A stretch of DNA of 64,000 nucleotides, from assembly GCF_000184705.1 (NCBI RefSeq), contig NC_014831.1, positions 2,170,001-2,234,000 of the forward strand, in the 5' to 3' direction. Of the stretch, positions 12,366-35,282 are shown in pieces. How positions within the stretch are numbered: position 1 is the stretch's first letter; every line of letters starts with the position of its first letter. Both the position numbers and the translations under genes were made by a program. Origin of the DNA: Thermaerobacter marianensis DSM 12885. Lineage in GTDB: Bacteria; Bacillota; Sulfobacillia; Thermaerobacterales; Thermaerobacteraceae. The notes under the pieces were generated by a model. The model saw nothing but the letters and a program-made list of their open reading frames with translations, did no database searches and had not been told where the DNA came from.

Positions 12366-12725
12366 GTGGCGGCGGACGATCTCCGATCCAAAGCTTACCT
12401 CTACTACCAGCGGGTTGATGCCGGCGATTTAGAAGGGCTTCTGGCTCTCTTCCACCCCGAGGTCGTCTACGAGCGGGGCGGCCGCCCGCCCATTCACGGG
12501 CTGGACGCGCTGCGGCAGTTCTACATCGGGGAACGCATCGTCCGGGAGGGCCGGCACGAACTGGAGAGGGTGCTGGTCGAAGGGCCCCACGTCGCCGTCC
12601 GCGGCCGTTTCCGCGGCGTGCTCAAGAGCGGCGAGCCCGTGGACGTGCGGTTCGCCGACTTCCACCATTTCCGGGACGGCTTGATCTGGCGGCGGTATAG
12701 CTACTTTATGGACCGGTTCGTGTGA
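12366..12725 (+). CDS. SnoaL/NTF2-like fold protein
   Basis: A 119-residue single-domain protein with the NTF2-like pattern: an N-terminal helix ending YYQRVDAGDLEGLLALFHPEVVY, then alternating strands ending FHHFRDGLIWRRYSYFMDRFV. The family includes small isomerases, polyketide cyclases and non-enzymatic ligand binders, so no reaction can be assigned. GTG 12366 has GGGGG seven bases upstream. It stands alone and converges on the helicase-nuclease gene. Confidence 0.75.
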   Translation: MAADDLRSKAYLYYQRVDAGDLEGLLALFHPEVVYERGGRPPIHGLDALRQFYIGERIVREGRHELERVLVEGPHVAVRGRFRGVLKSGEPVDVRFADFHHFRDGLIWRRYSYFMDRFV

Positions 12726-12860: not shown

Positions 12861-15800
12861 TTAGAGAGCCGCCGTCCACCGGCACGTGGGAAACCGGCTG
12901 CACCCCCAGAACGCCGTCCCCTGGCGCCGCCACCGAAGGTCGCGGTATCCCTCCCCACAATCGGGACAGGGAAGGTGCAACCGCTCCAATACCCCCCGCA
13001 GTCGATTCCGTGGGATGTTCTGCTTTCCGTTGCAACGAGCGTCTGCACATCGGAAGAAGGGCCCATACCGCCCTATCCGGAGGGTCATTGGATTCCCACA
13101 CATCGGACAATGCGCCAGTCCCAGGGCCTCAGCCAGTGCCCGGGTAATGGTGTCGCGTTCTACCCTTGCCGCCTGTTCCCGAAGATGCCTCTCGATACCA
13201 ACGAATTCATAAAGCTGTGCGGCGACGGCTTGCGATGGGATGCGAAACATGATCTCGGACGTTCCGTTGTGGGAAAGAATATTCAGGCTGCCAGTCCATA
13301 CAATTTCATTGTCAATGATCGCAAGCTTTTCGTGTGTTTTTGACACGGTGACCCATTGGACACCCTCATCCTTCATCTGGTTCATCATCGAGACAATGGA
13401 TTCATTATCCTGATGACGGGATACAATGGTCACTTTGACTCCACGGTGTAGCGCCTCCAGCAGGCAACCCATCATATTGGTGAGACGATGTTCGTGGACG
13501 AAGGGGCTGCATATGACCATGCGATCCCGCGCCCGAAAGACATCGGCCATAAACGCGTCGTAAAAGGTGGCATGGTTGTACAGCGCACTTCCATTTACAG
13601 ATGCCAATTCCTTCGACCGATCTACCCGTCGAAACAGCCACGCCAAAACAGTAAGGTTCGACTTATCGAAAAACTGGGCGCCATCGACAACTTCTCCGTT
13701 CTTTTGAACGAATCGGAGAGCCTCCCAAAGTGAATCCTCAGACCGACCTTGAGACTCCATGTAACTCAGGTCTGCCAGGAAGATCAGCTTATCCCTGGCA
13801 CGGGAGCAAGCCACATTGATGAGACGTGTCGCGTCACCAGGATAGGCGCCTCTCAATAGCTTGCCCATCTTGGCCGGCCTTGCATCGGTAAGGTCGAAGA
13901 TGATGACGTCACGCTCAGAACCCTGAAAGCGGTGAACCGTAGCCACCTGAACCCGCTGTGCCGGGAGGCCGAGTTCATCCCGCAGCGCCTGCAGCAAACG
14001 CACCTGGGCTCTGTACGGGGCCACGACACCAATCGAATCAACGCCGTTCTCAAGGAACTCCTTAACCATCGCCATGGCAAGGACGGCATCGTACAAATTG
14101 TACCGTGAATATCCATTGTTGACCTTGGCACACCAGGGATGTAATCCGCTGGTGTCGACGATACAGAGAGCTTGACCGGAACCCGGCGCAACTCCCGTAA
14201 TCGCCTTCAGGGGGGTGATGTCGGCATGGTGCTGAAGTGGATTGCCGTCTCGGCTATACACTAGGACGTTGACCAGCTCGCCGATTTGGGGATGCATTCG
14301 GTACTGTTTCCTTAGAGTCGCCAGGCGGGGATCGCCCTGGCGAACCGTGCCGTTTTCATCGATTATTCCAGCGGTGGTGAAGATATCCTGTCGAAGCCAT
14401 TGGTAAGCCAAAGGATAACGGCCGTTGTCATTGGCGTGCGAGATTGGCGGCAGCTGGCGGAAGTCTCCGGCCACCACCACCCTCCTGCGCCCGAGGCCAG
14501 CACAGAACCATATGTACGGTACGGGGATCATACTCGCCTCGTCGATGACGATGGTCTCGTAGGAGTCCTTGTAGAGCTTGTCCGTCAGCACCACCTTCGA
14601 TAGGGTGGCGCCTACGATCTGAGCCTCGGCGAGCACCTGGTCTTCAATCGATGCGATGATCGCCTCAATTTCCTGTAATCGCCGTTCCATCCGTGCCTTC
14701 TCGTTGGTAAGCCACTTCCACCGTTCCTGTACCTGTTCGTCCGGCGTGGATAGGGTTTTCGTCGCCCTGGCCAGCCTCGCCTCGAGTTGCAAGAGCTCAC
14801 GCTCCACTGTATCGAGGGCTGTGGCCATCTCACCTCGCCGGCGCTCCGCTTCCGCCAGTTGACTGGTGGTGTCTTCCCAGTTCGCCGTTGTGGTCGCGAT
14901 CTGGTGGCGGATCGCCTGGAGGTCGATCCCCTTCCACCACCGCACCAGCGGGTGCATTCGTTCACCCTGAACCAGACGGTCCTGCAGGTCGTGGAGATTC
15001 CGCTGCAGAGATTCCGAGTGGTGCCGAAGTTCTACGATCCGGGTTGAGAGGGCCTGCACCTCAGCCTTGATCTTGCTCACACGGCCTTGTGCCTCACGGC
15101 GAGCCTCGAGCATCCTGATCATCGGCTCCAATCGCCCGATCTCGGCGGCGATCTGGTTTAGAGACGCCTGCGGGACAGCCTGTTCCTCTTTGAGGGGTCG
15201 GGCCTTGCGCTCGACGATCGCTGTTAAGGTCACATCGTGGAGGACCGGGTCGTTGGAGTGGGGAACACCGACCCGGACGATGCGGCCTTCTTCCCGGTCT
15301 TGGGGCGGCAAGGTGCGCAATAGGGCGGTCAGCACTGCGTCGACGGCAGCATTGGTATGCGACGTGACGAGGAGACGCCCCTCCCGCTCCATCAGGGCCT
15401 GGATCAGGGCAGCCAGCGTACGGGTCTTGCCGGTACCGGGCGGGCCCCAGATAAACGTCACAGGGCGGTCCATGGCGCGGTGCACGGCGACCTGCTGCTC
15501 TTCGTTGAGGGCGACACCTGGTGACCCCTTGTGGACTTCAGCTCCATTTTCCACCGAGGCAGGGCCGGATGTACCCTTGCCAAGGGACGGTCCTGACATC
15601 CCCAGAGAACCTAACCCGTCCCCGGCGTCTCCGGGTTCGAATACCTCGGCGATCAGGGGGAGGGAGAGCCGTGAAGGATTTTCCAGGCACTCCTCTAGGC
15701 GTGTCCTCAAGGCTTCAAGGATGTAGGTGGGGCTGACGAACAAACGCGCAGCGGGCACCGTCGGCCCTAAATCGCCGGGCACGGCAATCCGGATCGCACC

Positions 15801-16064
15801 CTCCACCAACGACAGGATCGTCGCCGGGTGCGTGTCGTCTCCGACCTTGAGTTGTGCCGGTGAGTCACTCGGTATGTCGACCTCGGCACCGTCGATCGCG
15901 AAGTCATAGATGTATTGCCCCACGATCTGACTCAGCCGCCTGCCGTCGAGCAACCGATACCCCTGCGCTCCGCCCGACTCCTTGGTTGCTTCGATCTCTT
16001 CGGCGACCGCCTGAATGAGAAGCTGGGTCGTCTTGTTGAAGTCGAACAAGTGCACCACCTGCAT
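12861..16064 (-). CDS. SF1 (UPF1/SMUBP2-like) helicase fused to PLD nuclease motif and zinc ribbons; Mokosh type II-like defence protein
   Basis: A 1067-residue multidomain protein. A superfamily 1 helicase of the COG1112 type has Walker A GPPGTGKT near 206, a long coiled insert about 280-480, motif II VIDEASMIP near 505, QYRMHP near 584, and late motifs VHRFQGSE (about 710) and ACSRARDKL (about 750). Then comes one phospholipase-D nuclease motif, H-x-K-x4-D-x6-GS-x-N, near 908. Two topoisomerase-like zinc ribbons follow (CPMCG...C about 978; CPDCG...C about 1030). Helicase plus PLD in a single chain is the plan of the type II Mokosh anti-phage system as I recall it; the zinc ribbons add a nucleic-acid clamp. 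Codon use is visibly less GC-rich than the neighbours, suggesting transfer. The ATG lacks a clear ribosome site. Function is inferred, not shown. Confidence 0.85.
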   Translation of the reverse strand: MQVVHLFDFNKTTQLLIQAVAEEIEATKESGGAQGYRLLDGRRLSQIVGQYIYDFAIDGAEVDIPSDSPAQLKVGDDTHPATILSLVEGAIRIAVPGDLGPTVPAARLFVSPTYILEALRTRLEECLENPSRLSLPLIAEVFEPGDAGDGLGSLGMSGPSLGKGTSGPASVENGAEVHKGSPGVALNEEQQVAVHRAMDRPVTFIWGPPGTGKTRTLAALIQALMEREGRLLVTSHTNAAVDAVLTALLRTLPPQDREEGRIVRVGVPHSNDPVLHDVTLTAIVERKARPLKEEQAVPQASLNQIAAEIGRLEPMIRMLEARREAQGRVSKIKAEVQALSTRIVELRHHSESLQRNLHDLQDRLVQGERMHPLVRWWKGIDLQAIRHQIATTTANWEDTTSQLAEAERRRGEMATALDTVERELLQLEARLARATKTLSTPDEQVQERWKWLTNEKARMERRLQEIEAIIASIEDQVLAEAQIVGATLSKVVLTDKLYKDSYETIVIDEASMIPVPYIWFCAGLGRRRVVVAGDFRQLPPISHANDNGRYPLAYQWLRQDIFTTAGIIDENGTVRQGDPRLATLRKQYRMHPQIGELVNVLVYSRDGNPLQHHADITPLKAITGVAPGSGQALCIVDTSGLHPWCAKVNNGYSRYNLYDAVLAMAMVKEFLENGVDSIGVVAPYRAQVRLLQALRDELGLPAQRVQVATVHRFQGSERDVIIFDLTDARPAKMGKLLRGAYPGDATRLINVACSRARDKLIFLADLSYMESQGRSEDSLWEALRFVQKNGEVVDGAQFFDKSNLTVLAWLFRRVDRSKELASVNGSALYNHATFYDAFMADVFRARDRMVICSPFVHEHRLTNMMGCLLEALHRGVKVTIVSRHQDNESIVSMMNQMKDEGVQWVTVSKTHEKLAIIDNEIVWTGSLNILSHNGTSEIMFRIPSQAVAAQLYEFVGIERHLREQAARVERDTITRALAEALGLAHCPMCGNPMTLRIGRYGPFFRCADARCNGKQNIPRNRLRGVLERLHLPCPDCGEGYRDLRWRRQGTAFWGCSRFPTCRWTAAL

Positions 16065-16248
16065 CGGTGTTGGGGTAGCACCGTCAATCGGGCCACCTGG
16101 CTGGGCAGTAGGAAGAGTTTGACCCCGTGACGGCGAATGTACCGGTAATCAACTCCATCCTACTGGTTGGCGACAATTCGTGGGAAGGGTGCAGGTGTTC
16201 GCAGGTTCCAGCACCTTCAACCGGATTCGCCATGGGGAGGAGCCCGCC

Positions 16249-17832
16249 GTGGATTGGACCGAATACCAGCGCTACGACGGCCTTGGCCTGGCCGAGCTGG
16301 TCCGCACCCGCCAAGTCAAGGCGGTGGAAGTCGCCGAAGCGGCGATCCGGCGCATCGAGACGGTCAATTCGACCTTGAACGCCGTGGTGGTGCCCCTCTT
16401 CGAGCAGGGGCTGGAGGCCGCCCGGGCCGTCGACGACCGCCTCGCCACCGTAAGCGGTCCCCGCCATCCCTGGGAGCCAGGCCAGGCTGACGCCTCTGCC
16501 GCCGGTGCCGCCGAGTCCGGGGGGCTGGGACCCTTTGCCGGCGTGCCCTTCCTGGTCAAGGACCTGGGCGAGGCCCTGGCCGGGGCGCCCCTGACCCACG
16601 GCTCGCGGGCCTATGCCGGGTTCGTCCCCGACTACGACGCCGAGACCGTGCGACGGTACAAGGCGGCGGGGCTCGTCATCCTGGGCAAGACCAACACTCC
16701 GGAGCTGGGCCTGGTGGCCTTCACCGAGCCCGAGCTCTACGGCCCGTGCCGCAATCCTTGGGACCTCTCCCGCACCCCGGGCGGGTCCAGCGGCGGGTCG
16801 GCGGCAGCGGTGGCGGCGGGCATGGTACCGCTGGCCTCCGGCGGCGACGGCGGCGGCTCGCTGCGCATCCCCGCCTCCCACTGCGGCCTCTTCGGCTTCA
16901 AGGCCAGCCGCGGCCGCACCCCCACCGGGCCCGACTTCGGCCAGATGTGGCACGGCGCCGCGGTCTACGGGGTCCTCACCCGCTCGGTACGGGACAGCGC
17001 CGCCATCTTGGACCTGCTGGCCGCGCCGGAGCCTGGGGCGCCCTACGTCGTCGCCCCGCCCCGCCGTTCCTACCTGGACGAACTCGGCCAGGACCCCGAG
17101 CCCCTTCGCATCGCCATGGACACCCGCTCGCCCATCGGCCGCCCCGTGGATCCGGAGTGCATCCATGCGGTGGAACGGGCCGCCCGCCTCTTGGAAGAAC
17201 TCGGCCACCACGTGGAGGAGGCCCGGCCGGCGATCGACGGCCTGGCCCTGGCCCGGAGCTACCTCACCATGTACTGCGGCGTGGTGGCGGCGGAGGTCCG
17301 GCGGGTGCGGGAGCTGCGGGGTCCGGAGGCCGTTAAGCGGCTGGAGCCGGCCACCCGCATGCTGGGCCTGCTCGGGGAGACCATCAGCGCCGGGGAGTTC
17401 AGCCGGGCGCTGGAGCAGTGGGACCAGGCCGCCCGGGCCCTGGGCCGGTTCTTCCAGCGGTGGGACCTGTACATGACACCGACGGTGGCGCGGCCGCCCG
17501 TCACCATCGGGGAACTGAAGCCGTCGCCGGCCCAGGAGCGGTTGATGAAGGTGCTGAACTCCCTGGGCCCCCTGGGCTCGGGCCGGATCTACCGGGCCGC
17601 CGGCATCCTGGAGAAGGTGGCCCTGGACAACCTGGCCGCCACGCCCTTCACCCAGCTGGCCAACCTGGCCGGGGTCCCCGCCATGTCGGTGCCCCTGCAC
17701 TGGACGGCGCAGGGCCTTCCCATCGGGGTCCAGTTCATGGCGCCCTTCGGCGGGGAAGACGTGCTCTTCCGTCTGGCCGGCCAGCTGGAACGGGCGGCGC
17801 CGTGGTTCGACCGGCGGCCGGCGGTGGGATGA
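16249..17832 (+). CDS. Amidase (amidase signature family)
   Basis: A 527-residue hydrolase with the Ser-cisSer-Lys triad: Lys in PFLVKDLGE, cis-Ser in [16 protein letters not shown], and the nucleophilic Ser in [13 protein letters not shown]. It hydrolyses a carboxamide to acid and ammonia; the substrate cannot be told from sequence, and no GatB or GatC partner is adjacent, so a tRNA amidotransferase subunit is unlikely. GTG 16249 is preceded by GGGGAGG at 8 bases and is preferred over the upstream start at 16180. It diverges from the helicase gene. Confidence 0.9.
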
Positions 17833-18425
17833 TCCCCCTGCAGGCCGGTGGTTGGGCGCAGAAGCCCGCTCGTCCGGCACCCTGCTATGCTTGCGCCTCG
17901 TCCCGCGCCTTCCTCGGACCCCTTCGTCGCCGCAGGCGGCCCCTCGATGCATGGCAGCGGCGACTGCGGGCGCCTGGTGGCTGGCCTGGCAGCGGCCAGC
18001 AGGACCAGCGGCGATACGACAAGACCCGCTCCGATGTAGGCCGGCGTGTAGTACGGCAAGGCCTCTGTTCGAAGGACACCGAGCCACTCCTGACCGTTGA
18101 AGAGGTCCAGATGGGCCAGGTAGGTGAGGTAAGCGCCGCCCAGAATCACTACGCGCTCCATCACCGAGGCCACCACGTCCAGGGCGGCCACCTTGGGCCA
18201 CGGGTACGCAGCCTTGATGCGACGGCTGACCCAGCCGACGAACAGCCCGCCCACTGCGTACGGGATGGTGCTCATGAGCACCCCGCTCATCCACGCCGCA
18301 GCGGGAGGCCACGGTGCGTTGTGCCAGGCGCTGAAGTCGGTCTGGCCGTGCAGGAGCATGGCGAACAGGATGACCAGCCCCAGGACCTGGGGCGTCAACA
18401 CGTACGCCGCTCCGGTCACTACCAC
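17589..18425 (-). CDS. Putative membrane protein whose 3' end runs antisense into the amidase gene
   Basis: The first 150-160 of 278 residues hold about four membrane segments (for example LGLVILFAMLLHG, AVGGLFVGWVSRRI, VVILGGAYLTYLAHL, YIGAGLVVSPLVLLAAA) and look like a real unrecognised protein. The remainder is low in hydrophobicity, Arg/Ser/Pro-rich, and lies opposite the last 244 bp of the amidase gene. That tail may be read-through after a lost stop or a frameshift. GTG 18425 has no clear ribosome site. Two more small membrane proteins follow upstream on the same strand. Confidence 0.55.
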   Translation of the reverse strand: MVVTGAAYVLTPQVLGLVILFAMLLHGQTDFSAWHNAPWPPAAAWMSGVLMSTIPYAVGGLFVGWVSRRIKAAYPWPKVAALDVVASVMERVVILGGAYLTYLAHLDLFNGQEWLGVLRTEALPYYTPAYIGAGLVVSPLVLLAAARPATRRPQSPLPCIEGPPAATKGSEEGAGRGASIAGCRTSGLLRPTTGLQGDHPTAGRRSNHGAARSSWPARRKSTSSPPKGAMNWTPMGRPCAVQCRGTDMAGTPARLASWVKGVAARLSRATFSRMPAAR

Positions 18426-18623
18426 CGTCAGGAGGCCGTCGACGGCAAGCCCCGTCGGGTAACCTCCTTCGGACCCCTGGTAGCGCTTGCACCGGTAGTG
18501 GGGTCTCTACCCGGTTCTTGTTCATCCAGTGGGCTGCCAAGTCGCAGCAAAAACGTCACACAGAGCCGGCTTCGACTTTCCGCCGCACGGCATGGCAGGC
18601 GGGTTGCAGCTTCGTCACCTCGT

Positions 18624-26022: not shown

Positions 26023-27390
26023 TCACGGCAAGAAGACCAGTCCCACGCTCATCACCACGAAGGCGACCAGCATGACCACCGCCGTGTAGCCCAGGATCTG
26101 TCCCGCCCGCAGACCCGTGATGCCCAGCAGGGGCAGGGCCCAGAAGGGCTGGATCATGTTGGTGAGCTCGTCCCCGAAGGCCACCGCCATGACCGCCTTG
26201 CCCAGGTCGAGGTGGAGCGCCTGGGCCGCCTGGATCACGATGGGCCCCTGTACCGCCCACTGGCCGCCGCCCGACGGGACAGCCAGGTTGACCAGGCCCG
26301 CGCTGACGAAGATCCAGAAGGGGAAGGTCAGCGGCGTGGAGATGGCCACGAACCAGTTGGCGATGACGGCCGCCAGCCCGGACGAGGTCATGATGCCCAT
26401 GATGCCGGCGTAGAAGGGGAACTGCAGGATGACCCCGCTGGCCGAGCGGACGCCGTCGGCCACGGCCTCGGCGTACCGGATGGGCGTCCCGTGAAGCAGC
26501 AGCCCGAGGACCAGGAAGATGAAGACCACCATGTTGATGTCCAGGGCGGCGATGCCCTTCTGGGCAAAGGCGCTGACGATGTACACCAGGCCCGCCAGGA
26601 CCACCAGGCCCGTGAGCACCCGGCTGTTCTCGAGCCGCTCGGCCAGGGTCTGCTGCGCCTCGGGCCCGCCGGAGACCAGCGGCGGCTCGGCGGCTGCCGC
26701 CGCCCCGTCTCCGGACGAACCGGCCAGGGCCGCCGGTATCTCCGCCACATCACCCCCGGTGGGGTGCATGCGGGCCAGGATCCAAGGCGACAGGAAGAGC
26801 AGGACCAGGGCCACGACGATGTTGAACGGCCGGAAGATGGTCTCCGTCAGGGGAAGGAGCCCCATCTGCTTCTCCAGGAAGTGCCCCGGCGTGTTCACCG
26901 TCAGCGGGGCGGAGCCGGAGAGCCCGTTGTGCCAGATCATCAGGCCCACGTACCCCGCCGCCACCAGCAACGGGAAGTGGACCTTGATCCCGCGCCGGGC
27001 ACAGGACCGCCCGACCTCCAGGGCCAGCAGGGCACCCGCCACCAGACTGAGGCCGTAGTTGATGAGGCCCAACGCCCCTGTCACAAAGGCCACCAACGCC
27101 ACCGCCTGCCCGGGCGATTGGGGCCAGTCCGCCAGGCGCCGCAGCCCCCGGCGCACGACCGCCGTGTTGGCCAGGGCGTAGCCCGTCACCAGGATCAGCG
27201 TCATCTGCATGCCGAAGGCCAGCAGGTTCCAGAACCCGCCGTACCAGTCCAGCACCAGTTGGTAGGGGCCGTGGTCGGTGAAGACCAGGCCCATCACGTA
27301 GACCACCAGCGTCAGCAGGATGGCGAAGATGAAGGAATCCGGAAGATACCGCCGGGTGAACCCGCTGAGGATCTCACCCAGTCGCTGCAA
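26023..27390 (-). CDS. atoE: Short-chain fatty acid transporter (AtoE family)
   Basis: 455 residues and about eleven membrane segments. AtoE landmarks include MIWHNGLSGSAPL, PSGGGQWAVQGPIVI and FGDELTNMIQPFWALP. It imports acetoacetate or short-chain fatty acids by proton symport. TTG 27390 follows GGGGGAGG at 8 bases and is preferred to the TTG at 27429. A flexible Ala/Gly/Pro loop occupies residues about 212-248. No butyrate or acetoacetate enzymes are adjacent. Confidence 0.9.
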   Translation of the reverse strand: MQRLGEILSGFTRRYLPDSFIFAILLTLVVYVMGLVFTDHGPYQLVLDWYGGFWNLLAFGMQMTLILVTGYALANTAVVRRGLRRLADWPQSPGQAVALVAFVTGALGLINYGLSLVAGALLALEVGRSCARRGIKVHFPLLVAAGYVGLMIWHNGLSGSAPLTVNTPGHFLEKQMGLLPLTETIFRPFNIVVALVLLFLSPWILARMHPTGGDVAEIPAALAGSSGDGAAAAAEPPLVSGGPEAQQTLAERLENSRVLTGLVVLAGLVYIVSAFAQKGIAALDINMVVFIFLVLGLLLHGTPIRYAEAVADGVRSASGVILQFPFYAGIMGIMTSSGLAAVIANWFVAISTPLTFPFWIFVSAGLVNLAVPSGGGQWAVQGPIVIQAAQALHLDLGKAVMAVAFGDELTNMIQPFWALPLLGITGLRAGQILGYTAVVMLVAFVVMSVGLVFLP

Positions 27391-27559
27391 GCGCCTCGCC
27401 TCCCCCAGATGGAAATGGAATAAATTCAACGCCCCCCGGCGCAGATGTCACGTCATTCGGGCTGACGTCGTGCAGATCCTGCTTCTTCAAACCGCCGGAG
27501 GGCCCTTCGGCCCGGAGGATGGCCCCCGCGCAGCAGCAGGGAGCGGCCGGCGCCGGTCC

Positions 27560-30457
27560 TCAGACGCCATCCGCCTCGATGCAAGGCAGTAGCGTCCGCG
27601 CCGCCGCCACGTCACCCTGCCAGTGGGGCAGGCCGGTCGCCTTGTCCGTCAGGTAACGCAACAGGGCCAGGATGGTCTGGCGCGTCCCCCAGTAGTCCGG
27701 CAGCTGCTGGTGCAGGTACCGGCGTGCCGGCCTCGGGTCGCCCTCGGGATCGCGGGCCACCCGGTACACGGCATACAGGACGTGGCGAAGCAGGGTGCCC
27801 CCGAACCCCGCCTCACCCGGCCGCTGCAGGTCGCGGTCGCGGAACTCCGACGGGGTCTTCAGCCGCGTCCGGTTGGCCGCGCGGCCGGCTAAGAGGATCC
27901 GGAAGTCCCGGGCCCCGTAGGTGCGGGCAAACTCCTGGTACACCCCTTCCCGCGCCTCGCCGTGAGCCTCCACCTCGATGCCTTTGAGGTAAAGGCGCTC
28001 CTCCGGTCCCAGCCGGCGCCAGACGGACCGCTCCAGCCCGGTGGGGACCAGATAGTCCGAGGCGATCCGCACCGCCTGCTCGATGACCTGGCGGATGGGA
28101 GACCGCTCGCCCCTGGCCCGCCCGCGGCGCAGCTCGCGCGTCACGTCGATGTCACCGATGGTGCTGTATCCCGTCAGGACCCGCAGCGCGGCGGCGTAGG
28201 CGGCCAGCTGGTAGTCCGCGTCGCCGAAGTTGCGGTCGTCCTTGGGGTCGAGGGCCAGCATGGCGTCCAGCTGGCGCTCCACCTCCTCCCGGATCTCCGG
28301 GTAGAGGTCGACCAGCTCCCCGCGGCGCTGGCCCCGGCGCTTGCGCAGGACCAGCACCACCGTGCCCTGCACGTAGTTCCCCGCGCGAACCCCGCTCCGG
28401 GTCTCGGTGAGCACGGTCCAGGCTGCCGTCACCTGCAGCCCGGCGGCCCACAGCACCAGGGTGAGGTCGACCCAGATCTCCGGGTCCTGGTGGGTGAACA
28501 TGACCACCTGGAAGCCATCCTCCGGCATCCGGCGCGCCAGGTTCTGGTAGCACTCGGCCAGCGCCGTGCGGAAGGCCTCGCCCTCGCCCTTGACCGCCAG
28601 CGCCCGCTTGCTGTCGGCGTACCAGCCGGGGAAGAACGCGGCCAGCCGCTTCTCGTACCAGGCCAGGAAGAACTCCGAGAGCTCGTGGTAGTTGACGTTG
28701 TCGCCGTACCCGGGGTCGGTGATCCAGATGTCGGCTTCCCACTCCACGGCCCGGGCGTCGACGGGGGCCACGCGGTACGATCCGGCCACCGGCGCCGCAG
28801 CCAGCTGGGCGCAGAAGGCGGTCTCCAGGGCGCCCAGGGCGCGGCAGCCGTAGTTCATCAAGGTGTTGAGCGCCTGATTCAGGAAAGTCTGCTCGTTCTT
28901 CTCCAGGGCGGTGTTCCATACGCTCAGCCGGCTGTTCCAGTTGATCACCCGGCCCAGCATGAGCAGCAAGGCCCGGGCCTCGAGCCCTTCCTCCTGCGCC
29001 GCCCGCTCGGCCAGCAGGCCGTGCAGCAGCAGCTGCCGCGGGTTGAACAGGTGGTGCCAGTGGGTCCAGCCCCGCTCGCGCATGGGCTGGTCCGTGTTGT
29101 ACCCCCCTTCGATCCGCCGGCTGGGGAGGAATCCGCGAGCCTGCCACCGGGCGAAGCGCTCCCGCAGCAGCTCCAGGACCCGCCGCTCCCGCTCCAGGTC
29201 GGCCGCCGTCGGTGCCCGGTAGTGCCGCCGGCCGGTCTTGGGATCCACCCAGCGGATGCAGTAGAGCCGCTCCTGGAAGACGTCGTCGGGCCGGGGGACC
29301 AGGTCGTCGTTCTCCCAGGGGCGCAGGCCCGCCCGGCCGCGCAGCTGGTCGGCGCTCGTCACCTGGCGGTGGGCCGGGGGCAGCCAGCGGCCGTCCCGGT
29401 CCACCGGGCAGCGGACGCCGTTGGCCCAGGTGCCCTCCCGGGCGGCCTGCTCGATCTCCTCGTCGCTGGCCCCCTCGACGATCTCGATGTCGAAGCGGCG
29501 GCGGGCGGGATCGGGCACCAGGCGGGCGATCACGCGGCTGCCCCGGGAGGCGATGACCCACGAGGGCGCCAGCGGCACCCACCAGCCGGTGACGGGGTCC
29601 CGCACCTCGTGGCAGTAGAGGAAGGCGTCGGCCACCCAGCCCCGCTCGTTGCGCTCGATCCCCCACGCCTCCACCTGGCGCCGCACGTCCTCGAAGACCC
29701 GCCGCTGCGCCGCGGCGATCCGGGCCACCACCTCCTCACCGCCGCCGGTGAGGGCAAGGGCCCCCCACGTCAGCAAGGCGGCCACGGGGTTGAGGTCGGA
29801 GGCATACACGTCGCATCCCAGGCGGGCGGCCTCGAAGGGGATGCTGCCGCCACCGCAGAACGCATCGCCCACCCGCGGTGGGCGGCCGAACCGGCGCTCG
29901 CCCAGCTGGCGAACCAGCTCGGGCAGGCTGGCCGCGTTCGTCCCCAGGTGGGCGTTGATCCGCGCCCACGCCTCGGGGCTGGGCCCCTCGATCTCTTCGG
30001 GTCGCCGGCAGTACTTGAGGCGCCGGTCGTAGCCCATCCGCAGGAAGGCCCGGCGCTGGATCCGCTCCCGCTCCGCCCGGCTAAGGCCGCGCTTCCACCG
30101 GGCCTTGCCGCCCGTCACCGTGAAGAACTCGGCCCGCTCCCGCGGCGTGCAGTATTCGTACGCCTCCTGGGCCGTCAGGGCCCGGTCCAGGCGGCGCAGC
30201 AGGCCGTCGTCGTCCATGGTCATGGCGGCCAGGAACACCTCGCGGTCCGCCGCGGGGTCGTCCGTGGCCGGCATGAGGAGGCCCAGCAGGATGGCCCGCA
30301 CCAGGACCAGGGGCTTGCGGCCCCACCACTTGCCCAGGGCCGTCAGGGTCTGGCCGGCACCTGCCTTGCGTTCCTTGTAGCTTTCCTTGGAGAGCTTGCT
30401 GACGGGGAACTGTACCTCGATGAAGGACCGCGTCCCGAGCGGCTCGGCCTCCGGCAT
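27560..30457 (-). CDS. DUF1156 DNA adenine methylase of a DUF499/DUF3780/DUF1156 anti-phage gene set
   Basis: 965 residues. The start is the DUF1156 signature (FIEVQFPVSKLSKESYKERK then ALGKWWGRKPLVLVRAILLG). The AdoMet-binding motif follows near 195 (DAFCGGGSIPFEAARLG then ASDLNPVAALL). The amino-methylase catalytic motif near 576 reads DPGYGDNVNYHELSEFF, where DPPY is usual. COG1743-type methylases of this plan are thought to methylate adenine and to mark self DNA in a defence operon. ATG 30457 has AAGGAG at 7 bases; the in-frame start at 30490 is less likely. It is the last gene of the operon, 96 bp after the DUF3780 gene. Confidence 0.88.
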   Translation of the reverse strand: MPEAEPLGTRSFIEVQFPVSKLSKESYKERKAGAGQTLTALGKWWGRKPLVLVRAILLGLLMPATDDPAADREVFLAAMTMDDDGLLRRLDRALTAQEAYEYCTPRERAEFFTVTGGKARWKRGLSRAERERIQRRAFLRMGYDRRLKYCRRPEEIEGPSPEAWARINAHLGTNAASLPELVRQLGERRFGRPPRVGDAFCGGGSIPFEAARLGCDVYASDLNPVAALLTWGALALTGGGEEVVARIAAAQRRVFEDVRRQVEAWGIERNERGWVADAFLYCHEVRDPVTGWWVPLAPSWVIASRGSRVIARLVPDPARRRFDIEIVEGASDEEIEQAAREGTWANGVRCPVDRDGRWLPPAHRQVTSADQLRGRAGLRPWENDDLVPRPDDVFQERLYCIRWVDPKTGRRHYRAPTAADLERERRVLELLRERFARWQARGFLPSRRIEGGYNTDQPMRERGWTHWHHLFNPRQLLLHGLLAERAAQEEGLEARALLLMLGRVINWNSRLSVWNTALEKNEQTFLNQALNTLMNYGCRALGALETAFCAQLAAAPVAGSYRVAPVDARAVEWEADIWITDPGYGDNVNYHELSEFFLAWYEKRLAAFFPGWYADSKRALAVKGEGEAFRTALAECYQNLARRMPEDGFQVVMFTHQDPEIWVDLTLVLWAAGLQVTAAWTVLTETRSGVRAGNYVQGTVVLVLRKRRGQRRGELVDLYPEIREEVERQLDAMLALDPKDDRNFGDADYQLAAYAAALRVLTGYSTIGDIDVTRELRRGRARGERSPIRQVIEQAVRIASDYLVPTGLERSVWRRLGPEERLYLKGIEVEAHGEAREGVYQEFARTYGARDFRILLAGRAANRTRLKTPSEFRDRDLQRPGEAGFGGTLLRHVLYAVYRVARDPEGDPRPARRYLHQQLPDYWGTRQTILALLRYLTDKATGLPHWQGDVAAARTLLPCIEADGV

Positions 30458-30553
30458 CGTCCGTCTCCTTCCGTTCGGCCCACCGGTCACCTGGGGGCAG
30501 CCGGCCCTGCTCGGCCACCGGGCCGGCGGGGCCGGGTTCCTCCCGCGGCCGGC

Positions 30554-31249
30554 TCACCCGCCACGGGTCCCCACCTCCAGCAGCGGCGCCAGATCCCGCA
30601 GGGCCGACGGCGGCGGATCCTGGGTCGGGTTCTCGGCCAGGGCGATGCGGATCGCCTTGCGCCAGCCGCGGTCCTTGCCGTGCTCCGGGTGGCCGGCGGT
30701 GGCGTTGATGGTGGTGTACAGCCACCAGCGTTCCTCCGGCGCGAAGCCGCTCCAGTTGGCCAGCACGTTGGGGATCACCGCCGGGTCGGCGTCCTCCACC
30801 GCCCACATCAGGAGCACCAGCTCCTTGCCGAAATACGGGGCCAGGAGCGTCTCCCGCTTCCACTTGGCCGGGCGCCGGCCCATGCGCCGCAAGCGGGCGT
30901 TGAACTCGGCGGCAGCGGCCGGCGCGATCCGCGACCAGCGGTAAGGATCCAGCATCGCCTTGGGGCGGGGCTGGAGGACGGGCCCTGGTCCCGGCTCCAC
31001 CGGGAACGGCCGGTGGCCATCGGCCACCCGGTCCACCCGGTCCGAGCGACCCGCTGGCCCGCCGTGGTCGTCCGCCCGGCCCGGGCGCCCCGCTGGACGG
31101 CTATGGCCCGCCGCCGCACCACCTCCTTCATCCCAGAGGAACGACTCGTACACCGTCACGCCATCCCGGCCGAGGTCGACCAGCTGGAAGTGGTGGGGTC
31201 CCTCCGCCGGGTCGAACCCGAAGTCGTATACCTTGCGGCGTCCCTTCAT
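30554..31249 (-). CDS. DUF3780 protein of the anti-phage gene set
   Basis: 231 residues, beginning KVYDFGFDPAEGPHHFQLVD and with the conserved block ANWSGFAPEERWWLYTTINATAG then DRGWRKAIRIAL. DUF3780 proteins occur almost only between DUF499 and DUF1156 genes in defence clusters; their activity is unknown. Residues about 45-95 are a Gly/Arg/Pro-rich insert that looks poorly conserved. Its ATG overlaps the DUF499 stop by 4 bp, so the two are co-translated. Confidence 0.85.
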   Translation of the reverse strand: MKGRRKVYDFGFDPAEGPHHFQLVDLGRDGVTVYESFLWDEGGGAAAGHSRPAGRPGRADDHGGPAGRSDRVDRVADGHRPFPVEPGPGPVLQPRPKAMLDPYRWSRIAPAAAAEFNARLRRMGRRPAKWKRETLLAPYFGKELVLLMWAVEDADPAVIPNVLANWSGFAPEERWWLYTTINATAGHPEHGKDRGWRKAIRIALAENPTQDPPPSALRDLAPLLEVGTRGG

Positions 31250-34200
31250 GGCTGCTGGACCTCACCCGGCTGCAACGCCTGCCGCAGTTCAGCCACCAGG
31301 TCGGACAGGTCCTGTCCTTGCTGGAAGGCCAGACCTTCGACCTCCAGGGTGACGAGCCCGCCCGGCAGGATCTCCGCCATCCACCGGGCGATCTCCACCA
31401 CCTTCTGCGGCGGCAGCTGGGTCTTCTCGTCGGCGGCCAAGGACAGGAACCGCTGCTCCTTCCCCACGTCGACCCGCGGGCCGCAGAGGAGCGCCCGGTG
31501 CCGCTCGGCGAGTTCGAGGAACCAGTACGTCTCGGCGGTTCCGTCCAGTTTGAAGGCGCGCTTCCACAAGGCGGGCCTTCGGGGATCCACCGTCACCGGT
31601 TGGTCGCCGGCGGGCACGTCGATGCGCACCGTCTCCGACACCACCGGGCCGGCCCACGCCCGGGCCAGGACCACCCGCGTCCCCGGCGGCACCGCCATGG
31701 GCCCCGTGTAGGGCTGCCCGGACAGCTCCGGGCTCGACCCGTCCAAAGTGTAACGGATCTCCCCCCACGGAACGGCCTGCAGCTCCAGCATCCGCTGCCC
31801 GCCCTGCTGGAAGAACCTGTACTTGACCTCCACCGTGTTCGTCCAGACCCGCGGCTCGCCGGTCGGGTGTTCCCCGGTGGAGTCCACGGCGAGGAAGGCT
31901 ACCTGAAGGGCTCGCGTCCGCAGCTCGGCCCCGTCCAGACGGGGTGATGAGGGACTCACCGCCCCGTCGCAGCTGTAGTGGACCACATCCCCGTGGAGCG
32001 GCCGCACCCGCAGGGTGACCTCCCCCGTCTGGGGATCCCGGGACAGCACCTGGATCTGCACGTCGGTGGCCGGCTTGGGGAACGGGCCGCGCCGGACGTA
32101 GCCGTCGCCGGCATCCCGCCAGAGATCCCGGCGAATCATCTCATCCTTCAAGTCGTCCAGCGCTTGAGGGTGGTGGAGGATCCAGCCTGGATCCGTGGCC
32201 GCCCGCCGCTTGATCTCCGTCCAGCGCACCTCCTGCTGCCCTTCCGGCCAGAGGTTGCGCTCCACCATCTGGCGGAACGACGACGGATCCCGGCTGGCGT
32301 CGGGCACGTACTTCTGGACCTCCTGTAAGGCGGCCACGATCTGCTGCTCCCCTTCGTAGTGGTTGGCCACGTACCGGGGGTCGAGATCCACCACCACCAG
32401 CCGGTTGCGGTGGGGGTAGTACAGCTGCTGGAAGACCTCGCGGCAGGCCATGTAGAACAGCGCCTCCTGCCGCGCGAGGATCTTCCCGGCCTCCAGGAAC
32501 TGGGGATCGTGCTCCGGCACCCCTTGCTGCCGGAATTCGGCCACGATCTGCCGCGCCGCCCGCAGGTAGGCCGCCCGCTCCAGGACCCGCTCGTAGCCCA
32601 CGGGGTTGCCGGTGAGGAACAGGACCCGGTTCTTGTAGAGCTGGTATTCCCAGAACCGCCGGACTTCGTCGCCGGTGCCCGGCCGCGGCCGGAAGATCAC
32701 CAGCGCCACCCGGTGGGGCTGCAGTTCCACCTGGTCCAGGGCCGGCAGGGCGTACACCTCCTGGTAGCAGCCGCCGACCTTGGGGGCGAACATCTCCTGG
32801 AGCCGCTCGCGCAGCTCCAGTTCCCGCTCGTCCCGCAGCCCGCTGGCGTAGCTCTCCAGCTTGGCGTTCAGGTTCTCCACGTTCTTGAACAGGATCTTGC
32901 CGCCGCCGGTGACGTGCAGGTACCAGGCCCGCGCCTGCAGGCGGTCCAGGGCTTCCCGCACCGCGCTCAGGTTCCGGCCCGGCTCGGCCAGGTAACCCAC
33001 GATCTCCGACCGGTCCAGGCCCAGCGTGGGATTCACGGCCTGGGACAGGGACGACAGCAAGATCAGGGTGGCCGCGTCGCGGGCGTCGCTACCGCCCAGC
33101 TCGCGGTCGATCTGCTGGGCCACGGCCCCGCCGTTCTCGTCCACCACGTCGTGGGCCACCGCATTCTCCAGGGTCGCGTTGATCTGCCTGATTTCGCTGA
33201 CCAGTTCGGGCCGGCCCAGGTCCAGGTGGTGGGGTGCGATGAGGAACCGCTGGCGCGCCCGCCCCGATTGCCACAGCTCCGCCACCACGATGCGCATGAT
33301 CCGGATCAGGGCTCGCGTCTGCTGGTACCCCGGATTTTCCCGGAACCGGGCGAAGAGGTCGCGGAGGCCGGGATGGAAGGGGTACGAGTGGATGATCTCG
33401 CTCCGCAGGGCCTGGGGAGACGCGGTGGTCAGGTCGAGCCGGCGGGCCTCGTTCACCGCGGCCGCATAGGCATCGGCCACCGCCTCGATCGCCGCCGGCG
33501 GTGCCACCCGCTCGAAGAGCCGCGTCCGCAGGATGTGGTAGATCTCGTTGGAGTTGAGCTGCACGGGGTTGATGTGGGTCACCGTGCGGTTGGCTTCCAT
33601 GGCCAGGTTCTGCAGGGCTTCCCCGATGGCCGCACTGCCGGCCTGGTAGGCCGAGGCCCTGAGATCCGTAAGCACCAGGCACACGTTGGGCAGCTTCCCG
33701 CCGGCCACCGCCACCAGCAGGTTGGCCAGGGCGGTGGTGGTCAGGTGGTCCAGGGTGGTCATCCCCACCGGCACGGCCCGGGCCGCCTGGAAGTAGGGCG
33801 GCAGCTCGTCCAGCAGGATCAGCACCGGCTCGCCCCGCAGCAGCTCGACCCAGTCCTCGACCCCCGGGGCCAGGAGGGGGCTGTAGAAGTTCCGGAACAC
33901 CTCGCGCCGGTTGAGCTGCGTTGCGATCTCGCCCCAGATGCCGTGGGGCGTGTGGGTCTTGCGGCCGCTGAAGGCCACCACCCGCACCGCCCCCAGGGGG
34001 CCCGGCGTGTAGAAGCTGCCCATCACCGGCCGGCGCCAGCGGGGGTGCTTGGCCAGCAAGCCCAGGGCCAGCAGGTTGTGGGTCTTGCCGCCGCCCATGG
34101 ACTGGGACAGCAGGAAGGCTCCCGAGGCGCTCTCGGACTTGCCCTCCAGTCGCTTGAAGGCCTCGGTCAGCAGCTGCCGCATGCCCTGGGTGACGTAGTT

Positions 34201-34320
34201 CTCGGTGAAGAACCGCTCCGGGTCGATCCGGTCCAGGTCGTCGAGGTCGTAGACGGTGTCGCGCACCGAGGGATCGAAGACCCAATCCCGGGGTTTACAG
34301 GCTTCGTACAGCGATTTCAC
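31246..34320 (-). CDS. DUF499 AAA-type ATPase of the anti-phage gene set
   Basis: 1024 residues. Walker A SQSMGGGKTHNLLALG lies near 70-85 and Walker B VLILLDELPPYF near 163, with a sensor-like block CLVLTDLRAS after it. This is the DUF499/COG1483 ATPase that accompanies DUF1156 methylases. The C-terminal third has a strand-rich segment (residues about 800-900) of chitobiase/carbohydrate-binding flavour (WGEIRYTLDGSSPE). GTG 34320 has GGGGG 7 bases upstream; the open frame reaches 34419 but that stretch is the repeat region. First gene of the operon. Confidence 0.88.
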   Translation of the reverse strand: MKSLYEACKPRDWVFDPSVRDTVYDLDDLDRIDPERFFTENYVTQGMRQLLTEAFKRLEGKSESASGAFLLSQSMGGGKTHNLLALGLLAKHPRWRRPVMGSFYTPGPLGAVRVVAFSGRKTHTPHGIWGEIATQLNRREVFRNFYSPLLAPGVEDWVELLRGEPVLILLDELPPYFQAARAVPVGMTTLDHLTTTALANLLVAVAGGKLPNVCLVLTDLRASAYQAGSAAIGEALQNLAMEANRTVTHINPVQLNSNEIYHILRTRLFERVAPPAAIEAVADAYAAAVNEARRLDLTTASPQALRSEIIHSYPFHPGLRDLFARFRENPGYQQTRALIRIMRIVVAELWQSGRARQRFLIAPHHLDLGRPELVSEIRQINATLENAVAHDVVDENGGAVAQQIDRELGGSDARDAATLILLSSLSQAVNPTLGLDRSEIVGYLAEPGRNLSAVREALDRLQARAWYLHVTGGGKILFKNVENLNAKLESYASGLRDERELELRERLQEMFAPKVGGCYQEVYALPALDQVELQPHRVALVIFRPRPGTGDEVRRFWEYQLYKNRVLFLTGNPVGYERVLERAAYLRAARQIVAEFRQQGVPEHDPQFLEAGKILARQEALFYMACREVFQQLYYPHRNRLVVVDLDPRYVANHYEGEQQIVAALQEVQKYVPDASRDPSSFRQMVERNLWPEGQQEVRWTEIKRRAATDPGWILHHPQALDDLKDEMIRRDLWRDAGDGYVRRGPFPKPATDVQIQVLSRDPQTGEVTLRVRPLHGDVVHYSCDGAVSPSSPRLDGAELRTRALQVAFLAVDSTGEHPTGEPRVWTNTVEVKYRFFQQGGQRMLELQAVPWGEIRYTLDGSSPELSGQPYTGPMAVPPGTRVVLARAWAGPVVSETVRIDVPAGDQPVTVDPRRPALWKRAFKLDGTAETYWFLELAERHRALLCGPRVDVGKEQRFLSLAADEKTQLPPQKVVEIARWMAEILPGGLVTLEVEGLAFQQGQDLSDLVAELRQALQPGEVQQP

Positions 34321-34718
34321 GGTGGGACCCCCATGCTGGTCGTGTCTGCCGCCGTCATGTACGACTCGAGCCTTCGCGCGCTGGGCTCGGCCGTCGTCAC
34401 ATACGGCGCAAGCGTTCATCCGCTCGGTTGATCCCCCGTCACGTACGCCTTTTGCATTTCCGCGCTTGGTTCGCCCGCCAAAACCCCGCCGGGTTCGTCA
34501 CCTGCATGCGGCGTTCCCTCCTCCCGTCCTGGCCACATGGTTCGTGACCGCCAGGGAATCACCTTTGTCGTTCGACCCGAGGGGGAGTCGCCGTCAGGAG
34601 CTTCGCCTGCTGGTCGCCTCGCCACGGTGCGCGACGCCTCGTGACGCGCCTGGACAGGTTCCATCGCGACCGCTAGAGTGGGAGCTGAGCCGGCTCATGG
34701 GAGGAAGGAGGCTCCATC
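34321..34718. other. Intergenic region between defence operon and PfpI gene
   Basis: 398 bp between divergent genes. It must hold the promoters of both the DUF499 operon and the PfpI gene. Apart from the 42-bp repeats I see no RNA gene or convincing small gene. Confidence 0.5.
34353..34478. repeat. Three 42-bp tandem repeats upstream of the defence operon
   Basis: CGTCANNTACG starts at 34353, 34395 and 34437, exactly 42 bp apart. Within each unit further positions are shared, including GC then TT around positions 18-22 and CGCT with GG around 27-33. The array ends 33 bp before the DUF499 GTG. Forty-two bp is four DNA turns, so repeated sites would face the same side. Read on the plus strand the unit is 14 codons (pattern V-T-Y ... 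A-L-G-S), but a stop falls inside the array, so a DNA-level role such as protein binding is more likely than a peptide. Confidence 0.65.
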
Positions 34719-35282
34719 GTGGCCAAGGTGCTGATCCTCACCGGCGATGCCGTCGAAGCCTTGGAGGTCTACTATCCGCTCTACCGGTTGAAGGAAGCCG
34801 GCCACGACGTCCAGGTGGCCGCTCCCACCAAGAAGACGCTGCGGACCGTGGTCCACGACTTCGAGCCGGGTTGGGAGACCTTCACCGAGAAGCAGGGCTA
34901 CAAGCTCGAGGCCGATCTGGCCTTCGCCGACGTCAAGCCGGAGGAGTACGACGGCCTGATCCTGCCGGGTGGCCGTGCTCCCGAGTACATCCGGCTCAAC
35001 GAGCACGTCCCGCGCATCGTCGGCCACTTCTTCGAGGCGAACAAGCCCGTGGGCGCCATCTGCCACGCGGCGCTGATCTTCTCGCGGGTTCGGGACCACC
35101 TCAAGGGGCGGCAGCTCACGGCCTACACCGCCTGCCGGCCCGACGTGGAGTCGCTGGGCGCCACCTACGTGACCGAGCCGCTCCACGTCGACGGCAACCT
35201 GGTGTCGGCCCACGCGTGGCCGGATCTCCCCGGCTTCATGCGCGAGTTCCTGCGGCGGCTGGACGAGTACCTCAAGCGGTGA
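34719..35282 (+). CDS. DJ-1/PfpI family protein
   Basis: 187 residues of the PfpI type: the nucleophile Cys115 sits in the elbow GAICHAALIF with adjacent His116, and LILPGGRAPEY precedes it. Family members are proteases, glyoxalases or deglycases acting in stress protection. GTG 34719 follows GGAGG at 7 bases. It stands alone and ends before a strong hairpin. Confidence 0.9.
   Translation: MAKVLILTGDAVEALEVYYPLYRLKEAGHDVQVAAPTKKTLRTVVHDFEPGWETFTEKQGYKLEADLAFADVKPEEYDGLILPGGRAPEYIRLNEHVPRIVGHFFEANKPVGAICHAALIFSRVRDHLKGRQLTAYTACRPDVESLGATYVTEPLHVDGNLVSAHAWPDLPGFMREFLRRLDEYLKR

Follow-up and report, generated by a model that had tools for sequence, protein, structure and literature searches.

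The 64-kb stretch analysed here (the window; positions 2170001-2234000) of the chromosome of Thermaerobacter marianensis DSM 12885, a thermophilic bacterium from the deep sea whose genome of 2,844,696 bp is complete on one contig, carries on its minus strand a three-gene operon that belongs with the BREX-related defence systems, and this locus has lost a fourth gene, coding for a PLD(HKD)-Swi2/Snf2 helicase, which occupies about 2.7 kb in relatives. The first of the remaining genes (31246..34320, with a GTG start at 34320 and a stop at 31246) encodes a BrxC-related DUF499 AAA+ ATPase of 1024 amino acids (aa), the second (30554..31249) a DUF3780 protein of 231 aa and the third (27560..30457) a DUF1156 adenine-methyltransferase-like protein of 965 aa, counted from an ATG at 30457 that is preceded by a Shine-Dalgarno-like GGAAGGAGACGG, the open reading frame (ORF) itself opening at 30490. 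The first two genes overlap by 4 bp, and 96 bp separate the DUF3780 gene from the methyltransferase ATG. The original prediction for this locus had the coordinates, the gene order, the overlap and the gap right, as well as the three families, on which Pfam, PADLOC and NCBIfam agree. Strain 7p75T of the species is described as having one circular chromosome and zero extrachromosomal elements (PMC3035304).

Pfam matches lie well above their cut-offs for DUF499 (PF04465, 78 vs 23 bits), DUF3780 (PF12635, 118 vs 27 bits) and DUF1156 (81 vs 24 bits), and the corresponding PADLOC models score 706 (PDLC02192), 100 and 948 bits (DUF1156_MTase), respectively. NCBIfam NF042963 scores 1320 bits, above its cut-off of 1000, and both NF042962 (864 bits) and NF042961 (103 bits) stay under their equivalog cut-offs, as do the DUF499 and DUF3780 orthologues from the complete system of Thermomicrobium roseum. 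All three frames have the codon pattern of the host (G+C content at third codon positions, GC3, of 0.92 for DUF499, 0.89 for DUF3780 and 0.94 for the methyltransferase, with neighbours mostly at 0.88-0.94), and are therefore real genes rather than chance ORFs. The DUF499 protein carries an Fn3/CHB_HEX_C_1 domain (PF13290/PF13287) at ORF residues 878-922, ahead of its C-terminus and in a place matching that in T. roseum; the DUF3780 protein contains a Gly/Pro-rich stretch (residues 45-90 or so) that is absent from the T. roseum protein. Scans with Pfam, PADLOC and NCBIfam found no recognised nuclease domain in any of the three proteins.

PADLOC groups DUF499, DUF3780 and DUF1156 with a PLD_Helicase (PDLC02189-02193), the NCBIfam counterpart being NF042961-NF042964 (the helicase is NF042964, or PDLC02193), and the defence role that had been proposed for the gene group is upheld. 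It corresponds to the Type-2 BREX-related (BR) system named and described by Rakesh & Krishnan 2026 (PMC12839542), which contains a DUF499 ATPase, an N6-methyltransferase and, in 98% of taxa, a stand-alone DUF3780, and whose effector combines an N-terminal HKD (PLD) nuclease with a Swi2/Snf2 helicase. This HKD-helicase fusion occurs in 83% of Type-2 BR taxa, the rest having other nucleases adjoining the locus, and an FnIII-like beta-sandwich precedes the DUF499 C-terminus in 53% of members (PMC12839542). The roles proposed by the same authors are sensing and scaffolding for DUF499, reading of the mark for DUF3780, self-marking for the methyltransferase and destruction for the HKD-helicase (PMC12839542). 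The window locus has the same gene order and spacing as this system, with a DUF499 AAA+ protein that bears Walker motifs and the C-terminal FnIII-like domain, a stand-alone DUF3780 and a DUF1156 methyltransferase, but the HKD/PLD-Swi2/Snf2 helicase is absent from the locus and from the whole genome. Because this defining component was looked for and is not there, we do not count the locus as a complete Type-2 BR member: it is a Type-2 BR system minus its helicase-nuclease gene, a reduced and otherwise intact variant of an already known system, unseen in the other loci that we examined.

The original prediction had placed the arrangement with the Hma type, which is the wrong subtype; the operon belongs to a sister arrangement, Type-2 BR, whose proper partner is a PLD-SNF2 helicase. 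Hma (HmaABC, or Type-1 BR) is likewise built from an ATPase, a methyltransferase and an SNF2 helicase, and HmaB and HmaC are distantly homologous to the proteins of the window, but Hma has neither DUF3780 nor a PLD domain. In PADLOC, HmaB (94 bits) and HmaC (151 bits) are distant second matches behind the DUF1156 and DUF499 models, and these much weaker profile scores, together with the lack of an HmaA homologue at the locus, led us to reject Hma membership. Nor does the operon have the PglZ, DUF6079-type BrxC and BrxX of BREX types 1-6: its ATPase is a DUF499 protein, its methyltransferase scores only 35 bits against PglX, and no PglZ gene is adjacent. By homology, the DUF499 protein is the counterpart of BrxC, and the methyltransferase that of BrxX/PglX. 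A search for solved structures useful for the methyltransferase or the ATPase found none, and one for phage carriage of the system yielded nothing beyond a weak, partial match to Sulfolobus virus STSV1.

That the expected helicase is absent, as the original prediction had pointed out, stands out against a census of relatives. With the window methyltransferase as query, 80 genome loci were collected, and a PLD-SNF2 helicase of about 900 aa lies 3' of the methyltransferase, directly or a few genes on, in 72 of them. It is also present in four more, where a contig end had at first masked it; in the remaining four, which are not assessable, no more than about 140 bp separate the methyltransferase from the contig end, and the helicase thus occurs in 76/76 assessable loci. 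The HGK motif of the HKD nuclease was found in 27 of 28 inspected helicases (in the remaining one, another HxK came first in the pattern search). Among 399 independently sampled genomes of the phylum, all 16 loci with a DUF499-DUF3780 pair have the helicase, although the methyltransferase of one of these matches only partly. The same holds for 10/10 intact plasmid loci (the helicase being split into two ORFs in one), with one Deinococcus plasmid operon, interrupted by insertion sequences, left out of the count. The fourth gene is therefore present in 102/102 assessable relatives (76 + 16 + 10, with slight redundancy), none of which is a helicase-less intact locus like that of the window. As an aside on plasmid-borne operons, a Phd-VapC toxin-antitoxin pair is inserted between the DUF3780 and DUF1156 genes in two Deinococcus plasmids (L149, 9821-11285; L181, 8803-10222).

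The closest operon lies on the megaplasmid of T. roseum DSM 5159 (NC_011961.1, TRD_RS10465-TRD_RS10480), with protein identities of 79% for the methyltransferase, 69% for DUF499 and 59% for DUF3780. A PLD-SNF2 helicase gene follows its methyltransferase gene after 12 bp, and the resemblance of the two operons at the DNA level peters out close to the 3' end of the methyltransferase gene. In a methyltransferase tree of 98 sequences, the window sequence clusters with that of T. roseum (SH-aLRT 99) and next with that of a Ktedonobacteria contig (100), whose operon also carries the helicase. As both nearest neighbours in the tree possess the gene, its absence is a derived loss on the branch leading to the window; an ancestral three-gene state is rejected by the tree and the census alike.

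The fourth-gene position of relatives (27430..27559, minus strand) is reduced here to about 130 bp between the methyltransferase gene and a short-chain fatty acid transporter gene (26023-27429), the neighbour that had been predicted. With 28 helicases and the T. roseum helicase as queries, no remnant was found in this gap (27430-27560) or anywhere in the 64-kb window. There is no helicase at either end of the operon and no nuclease adjoining it as an alternative effector, and neither a transcription terminator nor a special structure rises above chance in the gap. When the whole genome was searched with a helicase profile built from 14 sequences and with the helicase of T. roseum, the only matches were to core motifs in two SNF2 proteins, neither of which has an HKD domain. 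One, at 1.90 Mb, has SWIM and SNF2_assoc domains in a known, unrelated architecture; the other, at 1.36 Mb, adjoins genes that we take, by eye, to be LigD polymerase-, LigD ligase- and Ku-like, and it could possibly be an accessory of end-joining repair. The finding that the original prediction had named as its refutation, a helicase of this system at another chromosomal site, was thus looked for without success. Of the three explanations that it offered, loss of the helicase is supported, and a location elsewhere is refuted for the proper helicase.

The three remaining genes are well preserved. Where 93% or more of relatives share a residue, the window has kept it at 109/111 positions in DUF499, 147/152 in the methyltransferase and 27/29 in DUF3780, and most of the departures are common to T. 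roseum, which has the helicase. Walker A (MGGGKT) and Walker B (LLDE) of DUF499 are intact, as is motif I of the methyltransferase (DAFCGGG). Motif IV of the latter reads DPGY rather than DPPY (window 28706-28717, codons 592-595 counted from 30490), a feature shared with both T. roseum and the Ktedonobacteria contig (L147 and L024) and thus by the whole three-member clade, DPSY being found in two other loci (L002 and L003). Since the nearest relatives share it, DPGY is a clade trait and not a mark of decay. The window and T. roseum copies are alike in their identity to outgroups and in the number of lineage-specific changes, giving no sign of a rate increase. Intactness and rates argue against long pseudogene-like drift, and are compatible with a recent loss.

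Upstream of the operon, three direct repeats, 42 bp apart and with the core CGTAYRTGACG, lie in the presumed promoter (34349..34477, minus strand), between the DUF499 start and a divergent gene (34719-35282) that we assigned by eye and presume to be PfpI/DJ-1-like. The window, in which 0.06 copies are expected, has no others, and the genome has 11 in all. The repeats may form an operator array; ahead of the T. roseum operon they were not seen. DUF3780 is absent from 3/3 screened genomes of the same genus, and the syntenic stretches of these siblings hold no trace or remnant of the operon. The slot beside the fatty acid transporter is instead occupied by a SnoaL-like gene and, in the two siblings tested, by a GmrSD-type (GmrSD_N) restriction gene, the third having an evidently homologous gene, so that this site, with different defence genes in sister species, looks like a spot of defence exchange. 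The SnoaL-like gene, which adjoins the transporter in three sister species, is found here in inverted orientation at 12366-12725, beside a superfamily 1 (SF1) helicase-PLD gene discussed below. Three GmrSD_N restriction-type genes (genome positions 2266965-2275065 and 2361914) lie to the right of the window, no more than about 130 kb away. An 818-aa ORF at 16084-18540 (minus strand) matches no family and is the shadow of a real gene on the plus strand, an amidase (16180-17832).

We lean, at little better than even confidence, towards a reading in which loss of the effector has left a modification-only remnant (modification-positive and restriction-negative, M+ R-). The DUF499 ATPase, DUF3780 and the methyltransferase would still form a modification complex, which would methylate a specific motif of the host genome; unmodified incoming DNA would be recognised and, for want of the HKD-Swi2/Snf2 effector, would not be destroyed. 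Such a state would resemble BREX without BrxL, or a type I restriction-modification system without HsdR, and the operon may persist because its methylation mark regulates genes or shields the cell when copies of the complete system enter. Modification in type I BREX requires BrxC, PglZ and PglX, whereas BrxL is required only for restriction (PMC9009780). Given this restriction-only role and the destroyer role proposed for the HKD-helicase, removal of the helicase should leave a modification-only state, so the expected phenotype is that of type I BREX lacking BrxL (PMC9009780), with modification kept and restriction lost. The likeness is one of mechanism only; the window locus lacks PglZ, BrxB and BrxA.

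Several points weigh against this reading. The BREX analogy is partial, modification in type I BREX also requiring PglZ, of which Type-2 BR has no homologue. The DPGY of motif IV makes catalysis by the methyltransferase a putative activity. Long-term retention and a recent loss of the helicase would be indistinguishable here, which makes selection for a three-gene function no more than putative. Our literature search found no methylome paper for the genus, and no methylome or phage data for the strain.

The strongest rival to a modification-only remnant is that the system died with its helicase and that the three genes are a plain relic heading for decay, which we consider unlikely while taking it seriously. 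The effector gene is indeed gone, the clade-wide DPGY leaves the activity of the methyltransferase uncertain, and sister species do without DUF3780, so that the locus is dispensable. Three intact frames with host-like GC3 and nearly all conserved residues in place speak against it, as do lineage-specific substitutions no commoner than in helicase-bearing T. roseum, even if a very recent loss would be compatible with all these signs. Of about the same modest standing, and if anything slightly more doubtful, is the proposition that the effector-less three-gene module has been kept by selection: either it would serve purely for epigenetic marking or immunity to restriction, or it would work with a substitute effector in trans, the SF1 helicase-PLD. 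If so, DUF499 systems would have their first example of a naturally stable M+ R- or effector-swapped form.

The second of these options is improbable when taken by itself. The SF1 helicase-PLD (12861-16064; AAA_11/AAA_12 domains, a C-terminal PLD and a Top1-type zinc ribbon), which the original prediction had put forward as a possible partner, would supply the same two activities as the missing protein in reverse domain order. It is the only PLD protein of the whole genome, lies 11 kb from the operon on the same strand and is missing from the syntenic segment of the siblings, which also lack the operon. However, it belongs to a different superfamily and shows no sequence link to the PLD-SNF2 helicase, and its GC3 of 0.69, as against 0.89-0.94 for the operon (genome about 0.9), points to a separate, later acquisition. 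Several genomes of the class encode full-length relatives (35-42% identity), and the six genomes screened for DUF3780 were all without it; six such loci share no common neighbour and hold none of the three operon genes. We therefore rejected it as the missing fourth gene, in view of its other superfamily, its other composition and its lone occurrence in relatives. Mokosh profiles match it with 204 bits (MkoA) and 153 bits (MkoC), each across part of the profile only, and it is best taken for an independent single-gene defence candidate that stands alone and is partly Mokosh-like.

We give somewhat less credence still to the idea that the three-gene form is an autonomous defence or gene-regulation system whose effector mode is other than DNA cleavage: its genes are intact and not accelerated, and the possible operator array suggests regulated expression, but the census of 102 loci, with not a single other helicase-less intact one, leaves no lineage of three-gene systems, and none of the three proteins has a recognised nuclease domain. 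The third option of the original prediction, a three-gene form that works alone, is without support as far as restriction goes. Replacement of the helicase by one of the two SNF2 ATPases (1.36 Mb and 1.90 Mb), which share SNF2 core motifs with it, or by one of the three GmrSD_N genes, for which one published case of BREX complemented by GmrSD-type enzymes (cited in PMC12839542) would speak, is very improbable, since neither ATPase has an HKD domain, their LigD/Ku-like context and SWIM/SNF2_assoc architecture, respectively, speak against such a role, and nothing ties any of these genes to the operon.

The division of DUF499 (BREX-related) systems into components that modify, sense and destroy has so far been proposed mainly from comparative genomics. 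A locus that lacks the helicase by nature and is otherwise intact, in a type strain that can be cultured, amounts to a deletion mutant ready for the study of these roles, with the complete T. roseum operon as a close control. The methylome of the strain would tell whether modification needs no more than DUF499, DUF3780 and the methyltransferase; if methylation were absent, this would suggest that the helicase, unlike BrxL in BREX, belongs to the modification complex.

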